In this document: positions 17,315-28,924 of the stretch, piece by piece
Numbering within the stretch: the first letter of the stretch is position 1
Layout of the letters: the number at the start of each line of letters is the position of its first letter
Assembly (NCBI GenBank): GCA_002127285.1
Contig: NFUW01000001.1
Span: 446,057 to 510,056, forward strand
Direction: 5' to 3'
DNA: 64,000 bases
Source of the DNA: Chitinophagaceae bacterium IBVUCB1
GTDB taxonomy: Bacteria > Bacteroidota > Bacteroidia > Chitinophagales > Chitinophagaceae
Program-made: the position numbers and the translations under genes
Notes under the pieces: model-generated
Database searches by the model: none
What the model was told of the DNA's origin: nothing
Seen by the model: only the letters and a program-made list of their open reading frames with translations

Positions 17315-17491
17315 ATGACACAGGAAGAAAAAGAACAATTAGCCAGGGAATATTGGGAATCCCGATTTGAGTACCTGGCACAGTTCGAGCCACCGCAGGA
17401 TGATACCATCTACTACTGGAACGACTGTCCTCCTGTAATTGATGAAAAACCAATTCATGATAAACCAAAGTCAAAAAAACGTAACGTATGA
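17315..17491 (+). CDS. small hypothetical protein overlapping the coupling ATPase gene
   Basis: 58 residues from ATG 17315 (MTQEEKEQLAREYWESR); an earlier in-frame start at 17276 is less likely because it lies in a spacer with no ribosome site. Acidic, with a basic tail PKSKKRNV. Its stop overlaps the start of the next gene by 4 bp (ATGA), coupling it to the coupling ATPase. May be an accessory subunit of the transfer machinery; that is inferred from position only. Confidence 0.6.
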   Translation: MTQEEKEQLAREYWESRFEYLAQFEPPQDDTIYYWNDCPPVIDEKPIHDKPKSKKRNV

Positions 17492-19044
17492 CACGTTGGA
17501 ATTTAGATACGGAACTTATAAGATTTGTCGGAGAAACGCCCGATTCCAGCTTTACTATCCGCAATGCTGTGGAAGGCGTGCAAGTCTTCGGCGGGATAGG
17601 CGGAGGAAAAAGCTCGTCCTCCGGCAGGTTACTAGCTCTAAAGTATTTGGCTCATGGTTTTGGTGGGCTGGTACTCACTGTGAAACCTGATGAAAAACAG
17701 GCTTGGCTTGAGTATGCCTCCATGACTAACCGCCTTCATGATATCATTGTTATTGAACCAGGACAAAAGAAATACCTGTTCAATTTCCTGGAATACGAAA
17801 GCAAGGCAAAGTACGGCACTTCATACACTGATAATATCCACCAAGTATTGCGGACAGTTATACGCGCCTCCGAGGAGCAAAGCGAAGGACGCAGTGATGA
17901 TGCTTTCTGGCAAGACTCTATGGATTTGTTCCTGAATAACCTGATAACGCTTTGCCTCTTGGCATACAACAAGGTAACCGTTCAGTTATTGTTTGACATT
18001 GCACAGACAGTACCTAAGAAAACAACAGCAGAATCAACTAAGCCAGAAGAGGAAAAAGAAGAAAATCCCGAAACTCCTGTTATAGAATTAACGCCGTATG
18101 AGAAAGCTATCGAGCGTGCCAATGAAAAGATAAAACAGGCCATGAAAGAATGGAGTGAAAGCCAGCCTGTCGGATACGTGCATTCCCTGACTGAAGAAAA
18201 ATATGAGGATGTATTGGATGAAGCCATACCCGGTTACAGGGAACTCAAAATGCTCGTAAACTTCTTTAAAGATAGCTTTTACAACATAGGCGAAAAGACC
18301 AGGGCGATAATAGAATTCTGCCTTACGTCATTTTTGCAACGCCTCCTGCGTGATCCGATCTATTCCCTATTTGCACAATATACATCCACCGTTACACCTG
18401 AAGACTGCCTGAAAGGTAAAATCATTATCGTTAACCTCCCCGTCAAGACGTTTCACAAAGCCGGAAGGGATGCACAGTTACTTTTTAAGTATATCTGGCA
18501 ACGTGCAATGGAGCAAAGGAATGTAAACGAGAATCAACGTCCTGTATTTCTGTGGGCGGATGAAGCGCAGCATTTTCTGCATGAAGAAGATACCACCTTC
18601 CAGGCGACTGCACGGAGCAGCCGGGTAGCCACCGTGTATTTATCCCAAAACCTGCCGAATTATTTCGCCAGCATGGGCGGTGAAAAATCGTCCCATAAGG
18701 TTAAGAGTTTCCTTGGCACGTTAGCCACGAAAATATTTCATGCGAATTCCGATGCGGATACCAATACCTATGCCAGCGAGTTGATTGGCGAAGCATACCA
18801 AAACGATTATTCAAAGAATGTCAATATGGGAGAAAACTTCAGCATCAGCAAAGGCACTTCCGTGAAGCTGGAGTCTATGGTGCGGAAAGAGGAATTCAGC
18901 AGACTTAAAACGGGTGGGGAGCGCAATGATTATATCTGCGAGGCTTATATCATCATCCAGGGTAAGAAGTTCTGTTCCGGAATGAACTTTCTGAAAGTAG
19001 GCTTTCATCAAAATATCAATCCATACACAAACATAAATTCCTAA
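17488..19044 (+). CDS. TraG/TraD-like conjugative coupling ATPase
   Basis: 518 residues. Walker A-like GGIGGGKSSSSG near residues 34-45, Walker B FLWADEAQHF near 350, and SRVATVYLSQNLPNYFA following it, the arrangement of type IV coupling proteins with a TraM-recognition domain. There is no N-terminal membrane anchor; the membrane protein encoded next (19063) may supply it. Role: brings the relaxase-DNA complex to a secretion channel. The low-complexity acidic insert at residues 172-195 (TTAESTKPEEEKEENPE) is a linker. Belongs with the MobF relaxase downstream. Confidence 0.85.
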   Translation: MTRWNLDTELIRFVGETPDSSFTIRNAVEGVQVFGGIGGGKSSSSGRLLALKYLAHGFGGLVLTVKPDEKQAWLEYASMTNRLHDIIVIEPGQKKYLFNFLEYESKAKYGTSYTDNIHQVLRTVIRASEEQSEGRSDDAFWQDSMDLFLNNLITLCLLAYNKVTVQLLFDIAQTVPKKTTAESTKPEEEKEENPETPVIELTPYEKAIERANEKIKQAMKEWSESQPVGYVHSLTEEKYEDVLDEAIPGYRELKMLVNFFKDSFYNIGEKTRAIIEFCLTSFLQRLLRDPIYSLFAQYTSTVTPEDCLKGKIIIVNLPVKTFHKAGRDAQLLFKYIWQRAMEQRNVNENQRPVFLWADEAQHFLHEEDTTFQATARSSRVATVYLSQNLPNYFASMGGEKSSHKVKSFLGTLATKIFHANSDADTNTYASELIGEAYQNDYSKNVNMGENFSISKGTSVKLESMVRKEEFSRLKTGGERNDYICEAYIIIQGKKFCSGMNFLKVGFHQNINPYTNINS

Positions 19045-19827: not shown

Positions 19828-19850
19828 CCTAAGTACATTCTTACGGGAAG

Positions 19851-19964
19851 ATGTCTGACAAAAAAAACAAAAAATCACACTATGAAAACAAGCAGGAAAC
19901 AGCCCCTTACCCTTCACCCGCACAGCCCCTAAAAAACCCGAACATGAAAACAAAAAACCTATAG
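19851..19964 (+). CDS. possible 37-residue Lys/Pro-rich peptide
   Basis: An ATG-to-TAG frame in the 225-bp gap before the relaxase, beginning MSDKKNKKSHYENKQE and followed by a Pro-rich part. GGGAAG lies directly before the ATG, too close for a good ribosome site. May be real or chance; the gap could instead hold the origin of transfer, for which I see no clear inverted repeat. Confidence 0.2.
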   Translation: MSDKKNKKSHYENKQETAPYPSPAQPLKNPNMKTKNL

Positions 19965-20052: not shown

Positions 20053-22800
20053 ATGATACGGATGATAATGTCAACATCAGCAGCGTCCGCGAAGTCTTAC
20101 TTCACGGACGCGCTGATTAAATCAGATTACTATATCAACGACCAGGAACTCAAAGGAGTATTCGGAGGCAGGTTAGCCGAGCGGTTAGGTATCAGGGGGG
20201 ATGTTGACAAAAACAGTTTCTTTAATCTCTGCGAAAATATCAACCCGAACACAGGCAATCCCCTCACCCCGAAAACAAAAGAAGAAAGGACGGTAGGGTA
20301 CGATATCAATTTCCATTGCCCGAAATCAGTTTCCATTGTCCATGCACTGTCCGGTGACGACCATATCCTTAAAGCATTCTCGGGCAGCGTTAAAGAAACC
20401 ATGCAGCTCTTAGAAAAAGATGCGTTTACAAGGGTACGAGTGGGTGGGGCAGACCATGACAGGGTGACAGGTGAATTGATATGGACGGAGTTCATCCACC
20501 AGACGGCAAGGCCGGCAGGTGAACATCATCCCGACCCTCATCTTCATGCGCACTGTTTTACGTTTAACGCTACGTATGATGCCGCCGAGGATAAAATCAA
20601 AGCAGGGCAATTCAGGGAAATAAAACGCGCCATGCCTTTTTATCAAAGTTACTTTCATAAGGTGCTATCTGATAAGCTTATGGATTTGGGCTATGAAATC
20701 GAAAGGACGAAAAACTCTTTTGAACTTTCCGGTGTGCCATCAAAAGCCGTTGAATTATTCTCAAAGCGGACAAATGAGATCGGGCAGGTCGCCAAAGAAA
20801 AAGGCATCACCGATGCGAAGGAACTGGACAAGCTGGGCGCAAAGACCCGCAACAGGAAACAGAAACACCTGTCCATGTCGGAACTGAAATTACAGTGGCG
20901 CAAACAGATTACGGATGCAGGGATTCGCCCTGAACCCTCTAAACCTGTTATCCGCTACGGATACAGTGAGGCAAAGAACCTTGTTACGCCGGATAAATGT
21001 GTCACACACAGCCTGCAACATAGTTTTGAACGTGCCTCGGTTGTACCGGAAAGGGTTATCCTGGAGGCGGCGTTGAAACAAGGTATCGGGAGCCGCTTTG
21101 CAAAAGCTGATGCTATCGTGGGAGCTGTAAAGGCAAACCAGTTTATTATCAAAGTCACTGATGGGGGGATTTCAAAATGCACGACAAAGGAAGTGCTTGA
21201 AGAAGAAAAACGCATGGTCAAACTGGCAAGGCGTGGCCTTGATGCCGTTACACCTATGTACAAAGAATGTCCAAAGCTGCAACTGGACGGACAACAGAAA
21301 GAAGCAGTGTCTTTCCTTTTAACCAGCAGTAACAGGGTTAATATTGTAAGGGGTGGCGCAGGAACGGGTAAAACAACCTTGATGCAGGAAGCGGTTAAGC
21401 ATATCCGCAAGACAGGCAAAGAAGTGTTTACCGTTGCTCCTACTTCTGAAGCGTCCAGGGGCGTTTTAAGAAACGAAGGTTTTGGCAATGCGGAAACAGT
21501 TGCATCTCTATTGCTGAACAAAAAAGAACATGACAAGCTGAAACATAATATCATCTGGGTGGATGAAGCGGGATTGCTTGGCACAAAAGATATGCGGGCC
21601 TTACTGGAGCTTGCTGAACAGCAAAAGGCGCGTTTGATTTTAAGCGGCGATACCCGGCAACATGCGAGTGTGGTCAGAGGCGATGCTCTGCGTATCCTAA
21701 ATACCGTTGCGAAAATCCCTGTGGCAGAAGTCAGTAAAATCTACCGCCAGAAAAAACATCATTACAGGACTGCGGTGGAGCATATTGCCAAAGGGGAAAT
21801 TGAAGCAGGTTTCAAGCAACTGGACAGCATAGGGTATATCCGAAAAATGGACGACCTGAACCCTTACCAGGAACTGGTCAAAGACTATGTGCAATCCCTG
21901 AAGATAGGCAAAAAATCCCTCGTGATCGCCCCGACCCATAAGGAAGGCGAAGCAGTTACAAAGCAAATACGCCAGTCGTTGCGCGCGGAAAAAATAATTG
22001 GACAAAAAGAACGACAGGTTACAAGGCTTGTAAACCTGAACCTCACCGAGGCGCAACGTGCCGATTGGCGCAACTTCAAGAAAGGACAGGTTGTGCAATT
22101 CAGCCAGAAAGCGACAAGGGAACTCACCAGGGGCAGTAAATGGTTGATCGCAGGGGTGACGGAAAACTATGTCAGCCTGAAGGGTAAAAACGGTATGACG
22201 GCATCCCTCCCCCTTAACAGGTCAAAACAATATGATGTCTATGAAATGCAGCCGCTCGCTATTTCAAATGGTGACACGCTTCGCATCACACGTAACGGTA
22301 TCGATGAAAAAAGAAATGACCTGTACAACGGCCAGGTGCTTGAAGTGGTGCATATCGATAAAAAGGGAAAGATTGAACTACGTAACAAGGCCAGTAAATG
22401 CACCTATACGCTTTCTCCAACCTTTGGCCATATGACCCATGCCCATTGCATGACCTCCCATGCATCACAAGGCAAAACATTAGACAGAGTATTCGTAGCC
22501 CAACCAACGGCCACATTTGAAGCGACCAACGACAAGCAATTTTATGTGTCGGCCTCGAGGGCAAAGGAACAAGTCACGTTTTACACCGATGACAAAGAAG
22601 GGTTACTGAAACACGCAGCAAGGGTGAGTGAACGGCAATCCGCTATTGAGTTATCAGTGCAGCATGATTTGCATAAAGATGCCATTGAACGACTGTTACG
22701 CAGCGAAGTCAATAAAGACAAAAAGCAGCAAAAGCAATTAGACAAACAACCGACCCGCAGGGCAAGGTTTGAAGACAGGGATTATGAGCCAAGACCTTAG
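20053..22800 (+). CDS. MobF-family relaxase-helicase
   Basis: 915 residues. N-terminal TrwC/TraI relaxase domain: tyrosines in SAKSYFTDALIKSDYY (residues 13-28) and the metal-binding three-His motif HPDPHLHAHCF near 170. C-terminal superfamily 1 helicase: Walker A GGAGTGKTT near residue 435, WVDEAGLLG, LSGDTRQHASV, and HASQGKTLDRVFVA near 805. It nicks DNA at the origin of transfer, binds the 5' end and unwinds the strand. MobF is much less usual in Bacteroidota elements than MobP/MobB. Alternative starts at 20062 and 20068 exist; the TTAAACC-rich leader has no strong ribosome site to decide. Confidence 0.93.
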   Translation: MIRMIMSTSAASAKSYFTDALIKSDYYINDQELKGVFGGRLAERLGIRGDVDKNSFFNLCENINPNTGNPLTPKTKEERTVGYDINFHCPKSVSIVHALSGDDHILKAFSGSVKETMQLLEKDAFTRVRVGGADHDRVTGELIWTEFIHQTARPAGEHHPDPHLHAHCFTFNATYDAAEDKIKAGQFREIKRAMPFYQSYFHKVLSDKLMDLGYEIERTKNSFELSGVPSKAVELFSKRTNEIGQVAKEKGITDAKELDKLGAKTRNRKQKHLSMSELKLQWRKQITDAGIRPEPSKPVIRYGYSEAKNLVTPDKCVTHSLQHSFERASVVPERVILEAALKQGIGSRFAKADAIVGAVKANQFIIKVTDGGISKCTTKEVLEEEKRMVKLARRGLDAVTPMYKECPKLQLDGQQKEAVSFLLTSSNRVNIVRGGAGTGKTTLMQEAVKHIRKTGKEVFTVAPTSEASRGVLRNEGFGNAETVASLLLNKKEHDKLKHNIIWVDEAGLLGTKDMRALLELAEQQKARLILSGDTRQHASVVRGDALRILNTVAKIPVAEVSKIYRQKKHHYRTAVEHIAKGEIEAGFKQLDSIGYIRKMDDLNPYQELVKDYVQSLKIGKKSLVIAPTHKEGEAVTKQIRQSLRAEKIIGQKERQVTRLVNLNLTEAQRADWRNFKKGQVVQFSQKATRELTRGSKWLIAGVTENYVSLKGKNGMTASLPLNRSKQYDVYEMQPLAISNGDTLRITRNGIDEKRNDLYNGQVLEVVHIDKKGKIELRNKASKCTYTLSPTFGHMTHAHCMTSHASQGKTLDRVFVAQPTATFEATNDKQFYVSASRAKEQVTFYTDDKEGLLKHAARVSERQSAIELSVQHDLHKDAIERLLRSEVNKDKKQQKQLDKQPTRRARFEDRDYEPRP

Positions 22801-23170
22801 AAGCAAACTCGACCGGATGCTGGAGAATGACCCTTCTCCCTCATCCAAATCCCCTGCGCAGGGACAGGATAATTATCCTGATGCAGGTTATGCAAGGAAC
22901 CTGTGCTTTATCCTGCCCGGTGAAAGCAGGGTGTTTTTCGGGTATGGTTATATCGTAAGCTGTACCTATGACCCCGAGGCCAATACTATCAAGGTAGCTT
23001 TCACCACGCATACGGTGACCATTGCAGGACACAATTTACTTTCGTTGTTTGAGCAACTCATGAACCAGACGGCGAGGATTATCGCCACCTCTGACGAACG
23101 GTATAATTCGCTGAATAAAACGCAGTGCCTAATCAATAACATCACGATTACAGAGAACCAGCCAGGGTAA
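22784..23170 (+). CDS. hypothetical protein overlapping the relaxase gene
   Basis: 128 residues from ATG 22784 (MSQDLRSKLDRMLEN), overlapping the relaxase end by 17 bp in another frame; a start at 22769 is also possible. The N-terminal 30 residues are a polar linker; the rest is a small alpha/beta fold (VFFGYGYIVSCTYDPEANTIKVAFTTHTVTIAGHNLLSLFEQL) that I associate with the minor DUFs that accompany relaxases. Ends at the strong bidirectional terminator 23172-23201, closing the transfer operon. Confidence 0.65.
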   Translation: MSQDLRSKLDRMLENDPSPSSKSPAQGQDNYPDAGYARNLCFILPGESRVFFGYGYIVSCTYDPEANTIKVAFTTHTVTIAGHNLLSLFEQLMNQTARIIATSDERYNSLNKTQCLINNITITENQPG

Positions 23171-23171
23171 A

Positions 23172-23201
23172 AAAGTCCCTGTATTTTCATACAGGGACTT
23201 T
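23172..23201. terminator. bidirectional terminator
   Basis: A perfect 12-bp stem (AAAGTCCCTGTA with its complement) and a 6-nt loop, with A-rich and T-rich flanks on both sides. It serves the transfer operon on the plus strand and the DUF2958 gene on the minus strand. Confidence 0.88.
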
Positions 23202-23205
23202 ATAC

Positions 23206-23613
23206 TTAAGGTTTTGGCTTGTTACGTTTACGCTGGATTATTGACTGAAATGCTTTATTCAAACTCATTTCGTCACGGGTAATCTGCCCTTCCAATTTTG
23301 CCGCCTCCGCATAGATGCTCATCGGATAAGTGCCGACAAAAAATGGATTGCTTAAAACAGAAAATCCGAATGGCCCGACCTTGATTGATTGTAACTCTTC
23401 AAGATCAACGGACCCGAGTTCCGGGAATCCCATGCCGAGATCGCATAAACCGAAAGCGATATTCGGGTTTTCAGGGTCGAGTTCAGAAATCAGCCATTCG
23501 CATTTTGTATACGGCAAGTGCAAATGAATAATTGGTGGATGATCTTTATCCCTGTTCTCCGGCTTGCCGTTTTCCAGCAGCTTTTGATATTGTTGTTCGG
23601 TAAAGAGTGTCAT
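23206..23613 (-). CDS. DUF2958 domain protein
   Basis: 135 residues. The family signature is clear: LLENGKPENRDKDHPPIIHLHLP, CEWLISELDPENPNIAFGLCDLGMGFPELGSVDLEEL. DUF2958 proteins are small passengers of plasmids and integrative elements, usually near antirestriction or partition genes; function unknown. The start ATG follows AAAGGA, which is the 3' strand of the outermost helix of the leader 23617-23802, so translation is probably controlled by that structure. Confidence 0.87.
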   Translation of the reverse strand: MTLFTEQQYQKLLENGKPENRDKDHPPIIHLHLPYTKCEWLISELDPENPNIAFGLCDLGMGFPELGSVDLEELQSIKVGPFGFSVLSNPFFVGTYPMSIYAEAAKLEGQITRDEMSLNKAFQSIIQRKRNKPKP

Positions 23614-23616
23614 TGT

Positions 23617-23802
23617 TTTTTCCTTTCATAAGGTTGATGGTTACAAGTGTGAACCAACTGCGGGGCTGAAGCGAATGAACAAGCTGTATTTTGGTTGGGC
23701 GGGTGAATGCCGCAGGCAGAGGGAAAATACTGCTTAGTGAAATGAGTGCACGCAGTTAACACTTGTAGCCAACCATCAACCCTTCCTGACCGAAAGGAAA
23801 AA
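23617..23802 (-). ncRNA. structured 5' leader A, masks the ribosome site of the DUF2958 gene
   Basis: Nested helices (plus-strand positions): 23619-23627 with 23792-23800, 23632-23642 with 23771-23781, 23643-23650 with 23759-23766, 23656-23662 with 23751-23757, then an inner helix (agctgtatttt with aaaatactgct, one mismatch) and a small apical hairpin. The outermost 3' strand contains the AAAGGA ribosome site. The same helices recur, with compensating changes, in the leader of ArdC at 24807-24996. This fills the 270-bp gap before the gene. Confidence 0.7.
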
Positions 23803-23883
23803 TTGGTGACACAGCATAGGGGAACAACTATCATCACAGCAGCAAAAAAAAGAGGATTGGATAGACCAACCCTCCTTCTTGCG

Positions 23884-24801
23884 TTACATTGACGGTTGCA
23901 GTGATTTCAGGTACTCAACGGCACGGGATGCAGCATTCGCTGACGCAGCGACAAGGTATTTATTGCTCTTGAGTGCCTGCATCCAATGGCCGATATAATC
24001 AGCATGGTCTTTACGGGGTTCACGGCTTATATTAAGTTCCGCGCAAAGAAAGCTGGCACCGAATTCCGCGACAAGTTCTTCGGCTGCATAGGCTTTGTCA
24101 CCGAAGCGTTTTCCGAATTCACGGTTGAGGCGCTTTTCATGGCCAACCCAATGTACCAACTCATGGCACAGGGTGCTGTGATAATTTTCGGTGGCGGAAC
24201 TATGAACTGTATCGATAAACAAGGAAGGTTTAGGCATCAGGATTTTATCTTCAGCAGGTATGTAACAAGCTTTCGACCCTTTGTGTTTGATTACGGCTTT
24301 GGTATTGGCGACAAATGCTTCCACCTGTTCCAGGCGCTGGGCAAGCGGTTCTAGCGGTTCTGCAACGGCTTCTTCCGGTTGATAGCTTGCCAACTGGCAT
24401 TTGTTGAATACCACGTAGGATTTTACGAAAGGCACTTTCTTTAGCTCGCCGCTTTCATCTTCCTTTTCGATGAAATCATAATATAATACCATCGTGCCTT
24501 TCTGCCCTTTGGAAATCTGCTCACCTTTCGATTGCCACTGCCGAAAGCTGCCCCAGACATTAGAGGAAAATTCCTGTTCGTGGGCTGCGCCCCAAAGCAA
24601 CAAGGTATTGATACCGTTGTAAGGCTTACCGCTTACCAGGTTTCGTGGCATTCGGAAGGATGTGTCGGACGACTTCCAGGGTTTTACCCAAGGAGTGATA
24701 CCGTTCTCAAGATATTTAAGGATGGTATCGGTGACGCGTTGATGAACATCGGTTTTTGCATTGTCAATGACGGCAGGGATAGTTTCAGAGATATGTTTCA
24801 T
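23884..24801 (-). CDS. ardC: ArdC-like antirestriction / ssDNA-binding metalloprotease
   Basis: 305 residues from ATG 24801; an upstream in-frame start at 24867 would run through the RNA leader and is rejected. N-terminal ArdC_N ssDNA-binding region (DTILKYLENGITPWVKPWKSS, then YNGINTLLLWGAA) and a C-terminal zincin domain with HELVHWVGHEKRL (HExxH, near residue 225) and AAEELVAEFGASFL. ArdC proteins protect incoming single-stranded element DNA from restriction in the new host. This fits a mobilised element with a MobF relaxase. Its ribosome site GAAAGG is buried in leader B. Confidence 0.92.
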   Translation of the reverse strand: MKHISETIPAVIDNAKTDVHQRVTDTILKYLENGITPWVKPWKSSDTSFRMPRNLVSGKPYNGINTLLLWGAAHEQEFSSNVWGSFRQWQSKGEQISKGQKGTMVLYYDFIEKEDESGELKKVPFVKSYVVFNKCQLASYQPEEAVAEPLEPLAQRLEQVEAFVANTKAVIKHKGSKACYIPAEDKILMPKPSLFIDTVHSSATENYHSTLCHELVHWVGHEKRLNREFGKRFGDKAYAAEELVAEFGASFLCAELNISREPRKDHADYIGHWMQALKSNKYLVAASANAASRAVEYLKSLQPSM

Positions 24802-24806
24802 GGCAG

Positions 24807-24996
24807 TTGCCTTTCTGTTTAGGTTAATGGTTACAGGTGATGGCACAACCGAAGGACTAGTGACCAAACCGGCTGTTATTTTGTTTCGCGATGAATCACG
24901 CTGAAAGCGTGAGAGGAAAATAATAGTTGGTGACGGGAGCGGCTTCGGTTAATCACCTGTACTGAAACCATTGACCGTCACTTAACTGAAAGGCAA
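24807..24996 (-). ncRNA. structured 5' leader B, masks the ribosome site of ardC
   Basis: Helices (plus-strand positions): 24807-24815 with 24988-24996, 24822-24832 with 24966-24976 (one mismatch), 24833-24841 with 24952-24960, 24847-24854 with 24943-24950, then CTGTTATTTT with AAAATAATAG and an apical hairpin CACGCT-GAA-AGCGTG. The layout is that of leader A. Paired changes keep the helices: outer helix TTTCC/GGAAA in A against TTGCC/GGCAA in B; third helix ACAAGTG against ACAGGTG with matching partners. Its 5' end overlaps the methyltransferase stop. Confidence 0.7.
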
Positions 24997-25916
24997 TTTC
25001 CATGCTCACGCTCATACTGTTCTATTGTTTTGAACAACTGCAAGGCGATTTCCGGCACGATGGCGTTGCCGAACATCCTGATCGATTGGGACACCCATTT
25101 TGGAAGGGTAATACCGTCCAGTCGGGCGGGAACCCCATCATCTCCCCCACAAAGCGGGGGTTGAGTCGGCCAGTCCTGCCAACGATATCCTGTATCCTTG
25201 AAGCGAGGTCGTCTCCGCGCCAGTTTTCCGTTTTCCGTTTGTGGTTGCTGTCGCTGGCAATGGGTGTTGGTAACAGCTTGTGGCGGTTGTACAGCACATA
25301 GGCCGTGAGTTTGCTGGTGTTGTCGGGTGTTTCGTCCGCGCGAAGCCTTGCCGAGAATCCCGGTGCGTTCCCATCGAAGGCTGTCGGTGTCGGGAGCAAC
25401 TTGCGTATTCCCCACGGCGGCAGGTTCAAATAGTCGTCCGACAATCCAGACCCTGTACCTTTGGTGCGGGGCGTTGACACCTGAAGCTGGCAATACATAC
25501 GATGCGACTTCGTAGCCTTCAGCTTCCAGGTCAGATTGCACCGTGTCGAAGACCAGTCCCTCGTTCCAATTAAGCAGGCCGTAAACATTTTCGCAAACAA
25601 CCCATCGGGGTTTGATTTGTTGAATAACGCGATACATTGCAGGCCAGAGATAACGGTCATCTGCCGTGCCTGCGCGCTTCCCGGCAGCACTAAAGGGCTG
25701 GCAGGGGAAGCCGCCCGTGAGGATGTCGATTTTTCCTTTGTAGGGTGTGGCATCAAAATCTCCGATGTCGTGGTAACAGGCCGCATCAGGCCAGTAATGT
25801 TGCAGGATGGTTTGGCAGAACATATCTTTTTCGCAATGGAATATGTTCTTCCATCCCATTTTTTCAGCAGCGAGGTCAAAGCCCCCGCCACCGGAAAACA
25901 AGCTTCCGTGTCTCAA
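24978..25916 (-). CDS. C5-cytosine DNA methyltransferase
   Basis: 312 residues. Motif I SLFSGGGGFDLAAEKMGW (3-20), motif IV GGFPCQPFSAAGKR with the catalytic Cys near 71, motif VI ENV (near 116), motif VIII QRYRVWIVG (near 153), and a C-terminal motif IX/X region KWVSQSIRMFGNAIVPEIAL. The target-recognition stretch, residues 165-250, is unusually Gln/Thr/Arg-rich (RQHQQTHGLCAVQPPQ), and the same DNA carries a long open frame that also looks coding. A lone element-borne methyltransferase, probably for evading host restriction. In one transcript with the primase-like gene upstream and ardC downstream. Confidence 0.92.
   Translation of the reverse strand: MRHGSLFSGGGGFDLAAEKMGWKNIFHCEKDMFCQTILQHYWPDAACYHDIGDFDATPYKGKIDILTGGFPCQPFSAAGKRAGTADDRYLWPAMYRVIQQIKPRWVVCENVYGLLNWNEGLVFDTVQSDLEAEGYEVASYVLPASGVNAPHQRYRVWIVGRLFEPAAVGNTQVAPDTDSLRWERTGILGKASRGRNTRQHQQTHGLCAVQPPQAVTNTHCQRQQPQTENGKLARRRPRFKDTGYRWQDWPTQPPLCGGDDGVPARLDGITLPKWVSQSIRMFGNAIVPEIALQLFKTIEQYEREHGNCLSVK
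25022..25891 (-). other. long second reading frame inside the methyltransferase gene, possibly coding
   Basis: An 870-bp frame (+1 relative to the methyltransferase) with a protein-like pattern: DWSSTRCNLTWKLKA, the repeats LLPTPTAFDG and LLPTPIASDS, and GRLNPRFVGEMMGFPPDW. From memory, the LPTP...D repeats followed by LNPxFVxxMMGFPxxW occur in proteins found beside C5 methyltransferases of Bacteroidota elements. Either the region codes in two frames or database copies are themselves shifted readings. Unproven. Confidence 0.35.
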
Positions 25917-25931
25917 TTGATGTCCTTTCGG

Positions 25932-26834
25932 TTATTTGAATCGGGTTAGCATTTCATTCAGGTCTTTGAATGAATAGTAATCTTCGTTTTTAGGATAATG
26001 CTTCATGTCTTCAGCAATCGAAAACTGCTTAAGTAAATCAGTACATGCTTTCCATTGTTCATCATTGCCCAGCCATGAGCACAGGTATTGATAGCCGTAG
26101 TTGCGCACATACCCTGTCATATCCTGCAAGCAATCCACGCTGTTCAGGATGATGCAATCATCATCAAACAGCCTGCCGTTCCGGAGTAGTATTTCAGAGA
26201 GGTAATCGTAAATGTCTTTGAAAATATGGACACCGGGTGGTTTGGGAATTTTCCCCCTGATAAAGCTGATCGCACGAGGGCCAACATGGGCTTTGATAGT
26301 CGGGTTGCGTATAGCAAAGCCGCCGTCCTCGTTTTCAAAGCCAATGGCGATAAAGCTCTTGTCCGTTAAACCGTTTCTGATACGCACCTGTTTTAGTGCA
26401 TGTCTTGCGGTATGAAACGGGATGCCACGGCGTAGTTCAAGGTAGCGTATAAGCACAGGTTCGCTTAACGGGCTTACGTCTTTTATCGTTAGTGGGTGGT
26501 CAATCGTTTTATAATCCGGTGTGCCGGGTGGAAGAAGGATGATAGCAGGATTATAACCAATCATGTTCTTCAGCCATCGCAGCGCATCCATAACAGTATG
26601 GTTGACATCCTGGCTTTGCAGGTAAAGACAAACCAGTTTAATGACATTCCCCATCTGTTCCGTGACAGGGTCAAACCATGTGTTGGTTGTATTGTTCACA
26701 ACCAGCCTGGAGCGTTGCCCGTCATTGAATGGGGATTTGTATAAATCAAGTCCGTTGCTTGTTGGCTTAGGTGATATGCCCCATACCTCAAAAATTTTAC
26801 GCAGGGGTATTGTGTTAGCAAATTGAATATCCAT
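25932..26834 (-). CDS. primase/toprim-like protein, probably catalytically degenerate
   Basis: 300 residues. N-terminus IPLRKIFEVWGISPKPTSNGLDLYKSPFNDGQRSR ... NTWFDP ... GNVIKLVCLYL follows the element-borne CHC2/toprim primase pattern, but no zinc-binding cysteines remain. The toprim part has DDDCIILNSVDCLQDM and then WLGNDEQW, where active relatives usually have a LDND.AG-type motif, so metal binding is probably lost. In active relatives the protein primes the complementary strand after transfer. 15 bp separate it from the methyltransferase. Confidence 0.78.
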   Translation of the reverse strand: MDIQFANTIPLRKIFEVWGISPKPTSNGLDLYKSPFNDGQRSRLVVNNTTNTWFDPVTEQMGNVIKLVCLYLQSQDVNHTVMDALRWLKNMIGYNPAIILLPPGTPDYKTIDHPLTIKDVSPLSEPVLIRYLELRRGIPFHTARHALKQVRIRNGLTDKSFIAIGFENEDGGFAIRNPTIKAHVGPRAISFIRGKIPKPPGVHIFKDIYDYLSEILLRNGRLFDDDCIILNSVDCLQDMTGYVRNYGYQYLCSWLGNDEQWKACTDLLKQFSIAEDMKHYPKNEDYYSFKDLNEMLTRFK

Positions 26835-27420: not shown

Positions 27421-27675
27421 ATGCAGATTGTCCCCTAATTGTCCCCTTAGGAATGACTAATAAATGATGATGCAATATAAGTGTTTGAAAAATGGTGCTG
27501 TTGAGCAGGATTGAACTGCCGACCTCTCCATTACCAATTTTTCCAAGCAATATTATTGTTCGTATTTCCTGATACGAAAATCATTTATTTTCAGCAACTA
27601 AGAGCCGAATCAGTCAGGGTCAACATCTGCATTAATACACGGATTTTAATGCAGATTGTCCCCTAATTGCCCCCT
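27421..27675. other. attP-like site of integrase 2
   Basis: Two 27-bp direct repeats with one mismatch (27421-27447 and 27649-27675; each holds TTGTCCCCTAATTG) flank a copy of the 3' half of tRNA-Thr(GGT) at 27493-27537, from the TTGGTAA anticodon loop to CCA. Arm sites on both sides of a core are what an unrecombined attP has. The gene-free stretch 27206-27685 holds nothing else evident. Confidence 0.65.
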
Positions 27676-27685
27676 AAAGGTTCTT

Positions 27686-28924
27686 ATGCAAACAGTATTT
27701 AATTTTACAAAATCAGCCTTAGAAGCCCTGCCCTTCACTGATACCCAATATGAGGTACGGGACATAAAAACCCCCAGCCTTATCCTGCGGGTGAACCCTG
27801 GCGGTATCAAAACCTTTATGTTTTACCGACGTGTGCAGTATAGAAACCTGCGTATCAAAATCGGGCGGTTGAAGGAAATATCAATAGAAGCTGCCCGACA
27901 AAAAGCTATTTTTCTTAACAGCCAGATTATTGCTGGTGTTAACCCCAATCAGGTACATAAAGAAAAAAGGCAGGAGTTAACTTTCAGGGAACTCTATTAT
28001 AAATACTATCGTGAACACGCTTTAATCAATACGAAAACGCCCCATGATAGTAAGGCGACTATTGAATTTCACCTGATGCCGAAAATCGGCAACTGGAAGC
28101 TAAGCGATATTACCAGACAGAAAATGAAAGAACTTCATCTGAACCAAGGGGAAGCCAGAGGTAGAATACAGGCAAATAAAGTGCTGAACATCGCCAGTGC
28201 GGTCTTTAACTTCGGTATCAGAGAGCAATACTATAAAGGTCAAAACCCATGTAAAGACATCAGGCGATTTAAAACCATCAGCCGCGACAGGTTTTTAAAT
28301 GGTGAAGAACTACGCCTGTTTTTTGAAGCGTTAAAAGAAGAAGAACAAATCTATCAGGATTTCTTCATGCTCTGCCTGTTTATTGGTGCCAGAAAAACGA
28401 CCATGCTGCGTATGAAATACGTGGATATTGATTTTGACCTGAAACGCTGGCGGTTATCTGAAACGGAAACAAAAAACGGGGATGTCAATATCCACGCTTT
28501 GCCGGATGCGGCAGTTGATATTCTAAGACGGCGGTCAGAACAGAATAAACTATCTGTCTCACCTTCCCTGTATGTATTTCCCGGGGATGGTAAAGAGGGC
28601 CACCTGGTTGACCCTAAAAAATCGTTTGCGCGTATCAAGAAGCGCATGGGAGTGTATGATTTCAGAATACATGATTTGCGCCGTACACTTGGTAGTTACA
28701 TGGCTATCGGCAATACCAGCTTGCAGATAATCGGCAAAGCCCTTAACCATAAAAGTCAAGTGTCTACTGAAATATATGCGCGGTTGTGCTATGACCCAGT
28801 ATTAGAAGCGGTGAACGATGCGACTAACTTGATAATGGAAAAAGCAAGTAAGCAGCTTAACTCTGTTAATGCAACACCCTATCTTGTTCAGGTGTCAACA
28901 GCCTTCAATTTAGCTAAGTTTTGA
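27686..28924 (+). CDS. P4-like tyrosine integrase (integrase 2)
   Basis: 412 residues from ATG 27686; a start at 27656 lies inside the arm repeat. N-terminal DUF4102-like arm-binding domain (ALPFTDTQYEVRDIKTPSLILRV, TFMFYRRVQYRNLRIKIGR), central SAM-like domain, C-terminal catalytic domain with Arg in GARKTTMLRMKYVDID, HDLRRTLGSYM and LNHKSQVSTEIYARL (His and Tyr). All catalytic residues seem present. Its start follows the attP-like site directly. Unlike integrase 1, it has no matching border pair in this window. Confidence 0.92.
   Translation: MQTVFNFTKSALEALPFTDTQYEVRDIKTPSLILRVNPGGIKTFMFYRRVQYRNLRIKIGRLKEISIEAARQKAIFLNSQIIAGVNPNQVHKEKRQELTFRELYYKYYREHALINTKTPHDSKATIEFHLMPKIGNWKLSDITRQKMKELHLNQGEARGRIQANKVLNIASAVFNFGIREQYYKGQNPCKDIRRFKTISRDRFLNGEELRLFFEALKEEEQIYQDFFMLCLFIGARKTTMLRMKYVDIDFDLKRWRLSETETKNGDVNIHALPDAAVDILRRRSEQNKLSVSPSLYVFPGDGKEGHLVDPKKSFARIKKRMGVYDFRIHDLRRTLGSYMAIGNTSLQIIGKALNHKSQVSTEIYARLCYDPVLEAVNDATNLIMEKASKQLNSVNATPYLVQVSTAFNLAKF

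Follow-up and report, generated by a model that had tools for sequence, protein, structure and literature searches.

Hairpins before ardC and DUF2958 genes of a Bacteroidota integrative element are candidate single-stranded DNA promoters

Genes and hairpins of the window

The stretch of DNA analyzed here, referred to below as the window, comprises 64,000 nucleotides of the Chitinophagaceae bacterium IBVUCB1 genome (GCA_002127285.1, contig NFUW01000001.1, positions 446,057 to 510,056). Its genes for a coupling protein, a MobF/TrwC relaxase, a dcm-like methyltransferase and a tyrosine integrase (Table 1) show that the surroundings are a relaxase-bearing integrative element, which may be mobilizable only. 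A related second module was observed on contig 2 of the same genome (L020, 1262000-1278000). That module has a relaxase, a methyltransferase, ardC, DUF2958 and both hairpins, and the hairpins are 91 and 93% identical to those of the window.

Table 1. Positions of the genes, hairpins and other features discussed in the text
Feature	Position in window	Strand	Remarks
TraG/TraD-like coupling protein	17488..19044	+	
Putative oriT/nic	19829..19858	+	Imperfect inverted repeat then GGAAGATGTCT^GA; inferred cut 19856/19857
MobF/TrwC-type relaxase-helicase	20053..22800	+	
DUF2958 gene	23206..23613	-	PF11171; 135 aa
Putative T-strand hairpin (candidate ssDNA promoter) before DUF2958	23607..23812	+	Core kept 23637-23778
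Intrinsic-terminator-like stem, 3' of ardC	23844..23874	-	GAGGGTTGG/CCAATCCTC then T8
ardC gene	23884..24801	-	PF08401 ArdcN and PF18818 MPTase-PolyVal; 305 aa
Putative T-strand hairpin (candidate ssDNA promoter) before ardC	24799..25004	+	Core kept 24827-24972
C5 cytosine methyltransferase, dcm-like	24978..25916	-	
ORF	25932..26834	-	No Pfam/NCBIfam match; conserved beside relaxase/ardC module
Tyrosine integrase of the element	27656..28924	+	

The hairpin before ardC runs into the end of the dcm gene. The terminator-like stem lies 73 nt ahead of the core of the DUF2958 hairpin, so the DUF2958 gene, separated from ardC by this stem, probably needs its own transcription start. Among the 47 members of the hairpin family described below, stems of this kind were found upstream of nine, against a background of 6%.

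Several additional features of the region were noted. Two ORFs that lack a Pfam or NCBIfam match, at 22769-23170 and 25932-26834, recur with the relaxase/ardC module in many loci, and the second has what we take to be a Toprim/primase-like look. The dcm-like gene contains a second open frame (25022-25891, minus strand, ~276 aa) that is conserved as a protein, with 87-91% identity in L020, L021 and L024 and 44% over 318 aa in L025. Pfam gave no match for this frame; its C-terminal text is presumably methyltransferase-like. A perfect 13-bp inverted repeat at 23172-23201, between the convergent orf22 and DUF2958 genes, is perhaps a bidirectional terminator.

A covarying hairpin family and its genes

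The original prediction had described RNA leaders before DUF2958 and ardC in which the ribosome binding site is buried. Both leaders were present where it had placed them, its outer arms were recovered as inverted repeats, and the predicted RNA folds (-69.5 kcal/mol, z -4.38, for DUF2958 and -68.9 kcal/mol, z -4.47, for ardC) were more stable than those of all 200 shuffles of either leader. In the folds of both copies the Shine-Dalgarno (SD) strand GAAAGG was paired, as had been claimed, and the ATG also lay inside the helix. Folding the hairpins as DNA gave a small strand difference for the DUF2958 copy (-41.3, z -5.31, for the + strand; -40.5, z -6.73, for the minus strand) and a larger one for the ardC copy (-45.5, z -7.49, and -40.5, z -6.96, respectively).

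The paired differences that the prediction had noted between the two copies proved to be real. With 16 related leaders, 10 of the 13 pairs in the RNAalifold consensus showed changes to both partners in one or more sequences. A consensus derived on the opposite strand, which is the inferred transferred strand (T-strand; see below), had 22 pairs, 18 of which vary on both sides, and 94.4% of its 807 cells pair. None of 500 shuffles equalled this covariation and slid versions came nowhere near it. Alignment of the arms gave 47-65 Watson-Crick pairs per hairpin, besides G.T and tandem G.A. That no family name was known for the leaders also held, in that neither leader matched an Rfam family above the gathering threshold. 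A low-stringency Rfam search returned three matches only, to two miRNA families and one snoRNA family, all far under the gathering scores.

The search for further copies with a covariance model, which the prediction had proposed, brought together 47 copies in 36 loci. Model R1, built from the 16 leaders, matched 25 of the 394 genomes searched in the window's family, that of the window among them, and three of 298 genomes of the order sample, these being the window's genome, one known family member and one false match. Model R2, a T-strand model built from 37 copies, had matches in six of 395 genomes of the class sample (again with the window's own) and in three of the 296 genomes of the phylum-wide sample, all of which belong to the class; that sample thus gave no match outside it. 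The samples overlap, and filters were stricter in the large searches.

From the loci that were fetched, 42 matches had an E value of 2e-5 or better and 41 of these were kept, while six weaker matches (E 0.079 to 5) were left out. The one removed, L081 (G173), was a false match and was dropped because it sits within a long open frame. Six later copies bring the total to 47; they come from five additional genomes, which belong to three other families in the class. The match in L101 is the L055 copy again and was counted once.

The hairpins are closely tied to a small set of genes. The gene immediately downstream encodes ArdC, DUF2958 or an ArdcN domain in 42 of the 47 copies: ardC in 23 (in one, L022, the gene is split in two frames), DUF2958 in 15 (in one, L065, apparently frameshifted) and an ORF with the ArdcN domain alone in four. 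Three hairpins precede other ORFs (126 aa in L064, 120 aa in L073, and 75 aa followed by ardC in L094), and two have no gene, one of them at a contig end. The distance from the end of the core to the ATG is 17-28 nt in 45 of the 47 copies. The recognizable likeness of the ardC and DUF2958 leaders stops at about the start codon. As an observation apart, the ORFs other than ardC and DUF2958 that carry a hairpin, L064:7794-8174(-), L073 ~12815(+) and L094 from 10031(+), are candidates for further early-entry genes; the first had no match in Pfam. Exact copies of TTCACCCGCCCAACCAAAAT in viral contigs numbered zero.

Folding strand and transfer polarity

Mismatches within the helices indicated which strand folds. 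The two arms of each hairpin were aligned with G.U and A.C given equal cost, and, read on the mRNA strand, 40 of 41 copies (L025_12802, whose anchor was lost, is omitted) contained 83 A.C, five G.U and 64 other mismatches, where composition would give A.C and G.U at ~1.2:1. Such an A.C corresponds to G.T on the complement. The asymmetry was also present among isolated mismatches alone (37 A.C, one G.U) and in the outer SD helix (15 A.C, one G.U), and 52 of the 83 A.C cells fall in one helix. When one copy was taken from each of the 23 clusters at 75% identity, the counts were 50 A.C and two G.U, or 16 and two outside the AT-rich helix (p 0.0035 against composition); G.U exceeded A.C in none of these representatives and equalled it in six. 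The six later copies had 14 A.C and one G.U on the mRNA strand, although they were found by a T-strand model that already allowed G.T and one of them, L096, was mis-anchored in the arm alignment. The next most common mismatch on the mRNA strand was T.C (28 of the 64 others), which is G.A on the complement. Of 37 aligned copies, 31 have a tandem 5'-GA/3'-AG on the template strand and 35 keep a G.G mismatch.

Folding energies agreed with the mismatches. With RNA parameters, 41 of 41 copies folded more stably as the template strand, with a mean difference of -16.6 kcal/mol. DNA parameters favored the template strand in 38 of 41, with a mean of -5.8, compared with -0.1 (sd 2.95) for windows placed at random in these loci; the coding strand was slightly more stable in the remaining three, all of them DUF2958 copies from near relatives. 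Among the later copies, the template strand was favored in six of six with either set. From an identical alignment, the complement gave 22 consensus pairs at -10.4 kcal/mol and the mRNA strand six pairs at -3.3. On the T-strand consensus structure itself, G.T outnumbered A.C by 105 to 1, a count that is biased because the structure was derived on that strand; a control with 16 tRNAs (20 G.T, no A.C) is likewise biased because the program allows G.U.

These computations show that the hairpin family folds in the template strand of its genes. The original prediction had assigned the fold to the mRNA, as selected RNA structure controlling translation. A selected, covarying structure before antirestriction-type genes is supported, but the mRNA leader as the selected molecule is not. 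Even in the outer helix, which covers the SD, the 15 A.C against one G.U suggest that the DNA strand is at least part of what selection sees. Polymerase perhaps needs duplex there, downstream of its start.

The predicted direction of conjugative transfer provided a separate view of the same strand. Many loci have an inverted repeat upstream of the relaxase gene, followed by GG.AGA..GTCTGA. The arrangement is like that described for R388, where the MOBF relaxase TrwC acts on a hairpin and the adjoining TATTGTCT/ATAG, the repeat and nic being eight nucleotides apart (PMC4814116). A cut after GTCT would make the T-strand of the window the + strand, running rightwards from 19857 across the genes for the relaxase, DUF2958 and ArdC. 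It would thus be the template strand of ardC and DUF2958, which is the strand in which the hairpins fold. The predicted nic lies ~3.8 and 4.9 kb ahead of the two hairpins on the T-strand, and would place them in the leading region.

A MobF-type nic motif was found in 22 of the 36 hairpin loci, and in all 22 it lies downstream of the hairpin's gene, on the other strand. The folding strand thus agrees with the predicted T-strand wherever the motif is present, although the 22 loci are not independent events because many are related. Polarity was scored by script in 18 loci and by hand in four. The set consists of 17 loci together with L069, L094, L101, L102 and L104, of which L101, L102 and L104 extend L055, L064 and L074, and the GG of the motif is GA in L069. 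Polarity between hairpin and nic holds in L101 and L066 as well, although the relaxase gene of the former is inverted with respect to the nic and that of the latter lies beyond the hairpin. The motif was not found in the other 14 loci, including L078 and L080, in which the relaxase gene is inverted. Nic-like matches in L025 (17952), L093 (11276) and L104 (2847) were inside genes or not strict, and were left uncounted.

Proposed function and comparison with known systems

We hypothesize, with a probability of about 0.7, that each hairpin is an Frpo/ssi-like single-stranded DNA (ssDNA) promoter in the leading region that expresses ardC or DUF2958 from the entering T-strand. The relaxase would nick at ~19856 and the + strand would go into the recipient 5' end first, with the relaxase, DUF2958, ardC and dcm genes entering within about the first 6 kb. 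At each hairpin the T-strand, while still single-stranded, would form a long fold-back duplex that mimics a double-stranded promoter, with an AT-rich, UP-like apical helix, a -33-like TT(G) and a TA ~20 nt on. RNA polymerase would start on this duplex with the T-strand as template and read towards oriT, and ardC or DUF2958 mRNA would be made before the second strand exists. As such an mRNA starts inside the hairpin, it would lack the 5' arm and its SD and AUG would be free. In this proposal we infer nicking at the motif, polymerase binding, the promoter boxes, the start site and the timing. The orientation of the genes is as the proposal expects, in that ardC and DUF2958 are read from the predicted T-strand towards oriT. 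Expression at entry would also suit ArdC, since that of R388 is described as required in the recipient and not in the donor (PMC7213743). A point against an ssDNA promoter is that the outer helix covers the SD and ATG, for which a promoter has no obvious need.

The primary sigma factor of Bacteroidota is reported to recognize a -7 box, TAnnTTTG, and a less constant -33 box, TTTG (PMC7366714, PMC9723704). The -7 box was present in the 160 nt upstream of none of the 47 hairpins and, within the hairpins, on the coding strand of none and the T-strand of two. These absences are suggestive only, because the background rates are low (27 of 220 for other genes in these loci; 5.7% for 160-nt stretches taken at random). 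Nor was the full TAnnTTTG found in the outward orientation, where a TT(G) is followed, usually, by a TA at roughly the expected distance. Along the non-template arm of the folded T-strand the order is AAAAT(T/A)nTT, then GTTGG, in which TT is almost invariant, then ~20 nt and usually TA. To judge by its letters, this order would resemble UP-like, -33-like and -7-like elements without the TTTG. A promoter aimed at the apical loop, for which the T-strand hairpin offers a conserved AATTTTGG in its 5' half, was not adopted because polymerase would have to round the loop and cross its own promoter.

A two-state switch coded by strand is a tentative extension about which we are rather doubtful. The hairpin in ssDNA would be an active promoter, whereas read-through mRNA carrying both arms would be silent, its SD and AUG buried. 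If so, a single palindrome would time anti-restriction to the minutes of entry through both transcription and translation, in a phylum that has a primary sigma factor of its own. The original prediction had suggested a switch that opens on entry of the element or in response to a ligand; action at entry is plausible, and the form of an RNA switch was not supported. Its own alternative, that the palindromes act as DNA sites, is better supported, in single-stranded form.

Of the other explanations, the one closest to an ssDNA promoter is that the hairpins are ssi/sso single-strand initiation sites that prime the complement of the T-strand, gene expression being secondary. Strand and place would be identical, and Frpo reportedly does both, promoting and priming (work of Masai and Arai in 1997). 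We nevertheless think it unlikely that priming is the main role, as it requires no link to the start codon such as the 17-28 nt seen in 45 of 47 copies, and as up to three hairpins occur in a locus (L025), each with its own gene. It is quite improbable that a structured antisense RNA from the + strand, repressing the gene across the leader, is what has been conserved. The strand would be the one that the evidence favors, G.U and tandem G.A fit RNA equally well, and the strand difference was larger with RNA-parameter energies. Against this, antisense TAnnTTTG occurred in the first 160 nt of none of the 47 genes (weak, given 5.7% at random), the likeness of the ardC and DUF2958 leaders ends at about the start codon, and an antisense RNA would not predict the polarity of the nic in 22 of 22 motif-bearing loci.

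The hairpins could also be sites, without promoter function, at which a protein of the element (a relaxase, an SSB-like protein or ArdC) binds the T-strand or a cruciform, or they could be regulators like EGeRS1. The conserved non-Watson-Crick motifs (G.G in 35 and tandem G.A in 31 of 37 copies) would suit a binding site, R388 ArdC is described as having an ssDNA-binding domain (PMC7213743), and pLS20 ardC is preceded by a structured region of 400-600 bp in which no strong sigma-A promoter was found (PMC8708921). We consider this very unlikely given the fixed spacing to start codons, the promoter-like order of AT-rich helix and TT(G)...TA, and the polarity of pLS20, whose T-strand is the non-template strand where that predicted here is the template. 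A cis-acting mRNA leader (a riboswitch, a thermometer or a protein-bound leader) that hides SD and AUG until a signal would account for the helix over SD and ATG in both window copies, the strong covariation and the place right before the ATG in 45 of 47, but is highly improbable in view of A.C instead of G.U on the mRNA strand (15:1 in the outer helix), the more stable complement (41 of 41 with RNA energies; 22 consensus pairs to six), the lack of TAnnTTTG upstream of all 47 hairpins (27 of 220 in the control), the terminator-like stem that separates ardC from the DUF2958 hairpin, and the lack of an Rfam match.

An ssDNA promoter would place the family beside known T-strand hairpins. Frpo1 and Frpo2 of F are described as T-strand hairpins on which the early expression of leading genes in the recipient depends (PMC9849209), and Frpo-like sequences as widespread in leading regions with anti-defence genes (PMC11541004). 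Like Frpo1, Frpo2 and the ssi of ColIb-P9, members of the window family are long imperfect hairpins in the T-strand of the leading region, read towards oriT. In both cases the hairpin is repeated before early genes, which in ColIb-P9 include an anti-restriction gene (PMC8708921). The Frpo of F also shares the AT-rich apical helix and a tandem G.T in the T-strand stem, with two G.T and no A.C in each copy; the DNA energies of Frpo2 differ little between strands (-63.7 and -62.7). The differences lie in the genes (ardC, DUF2958 and ArdcN here; ssb/psiB/ygeA for Frpo), in the base of the hairpin, which here covers the SD and ATG and in the ssb copy of F, by our own fold, has its main stem further upstream, and in the hosts, which have sigma-ABfr and not sigma-70 as primary sigma factor (PMC7366714). 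A blastn search of 72,556 plasmid records with one member of the family (L024:6724-6921) gave no match, whereas Frpo2 matched at least 5000 records of the same collection; for this member, the family is thus not a homologue of Frpo detectable by sequence.

Samuel et al. (2024) also predicted ssDNA promoters before anti-defence genes, but found their candidates through similarity to Frpo and sigma-70 boxes (PMC11541004). The window family was found without an Frpo reference, and the evidence for it consists of covariation, strand asymmetry and the polarity of the nic. The main text of that article does not contain the words Bacteroid, ArdC or DUF2958, and the open-access literature (PMC) yielded no description of ssDNA promoters in Bacteroidota, which is weak evidence of absence. 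Leaders of mRNA that sequester the SD, such as riboswitches and thermometers, resemble the window family in that a hairpin covers the SD and start codon; they differ in that the pairing rules of the family fit the complementary strand.

In gene content, EGeRS1 of the pLS20 plasmids is a closer parallel than Frpo. It is described as structured regions of 400-600 bp with several inverted repeats (PMC8708921), and like the window family it is a conserved structure before establishment genes, including ardC, in several copies per plasmid and with no strong sigma-A promoter found (PMC8708921). The hairpins here differ in being ~200 nt long. For EGeRS1 an ssDNA promoter was rejected by its authors on the ground that in pLS20 the non-template strand is the one transferred (PMC8708921). 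The opposite predicted polarity here leaves that reading open to the window family and not to EGeRS1.

Promoters in ssDNA have been established with enterobacterial plasmids and sigma-70. Should our hypothesis be true, an unrelated family on Bacteroidota mobile elements would suggest that expressing anti-restriction genes from the entering strand is a general strategy with more than one origin, strand asymmetry of G.T and A.C together with nic polarity would offer a way to such promoters without sequence similarity, and how polymerase with sigma-ABfr starts on a hairpin would become directly testable. Overall, the kind of element is known from enterobacterial plasmids, and the family in the window appears to be new.
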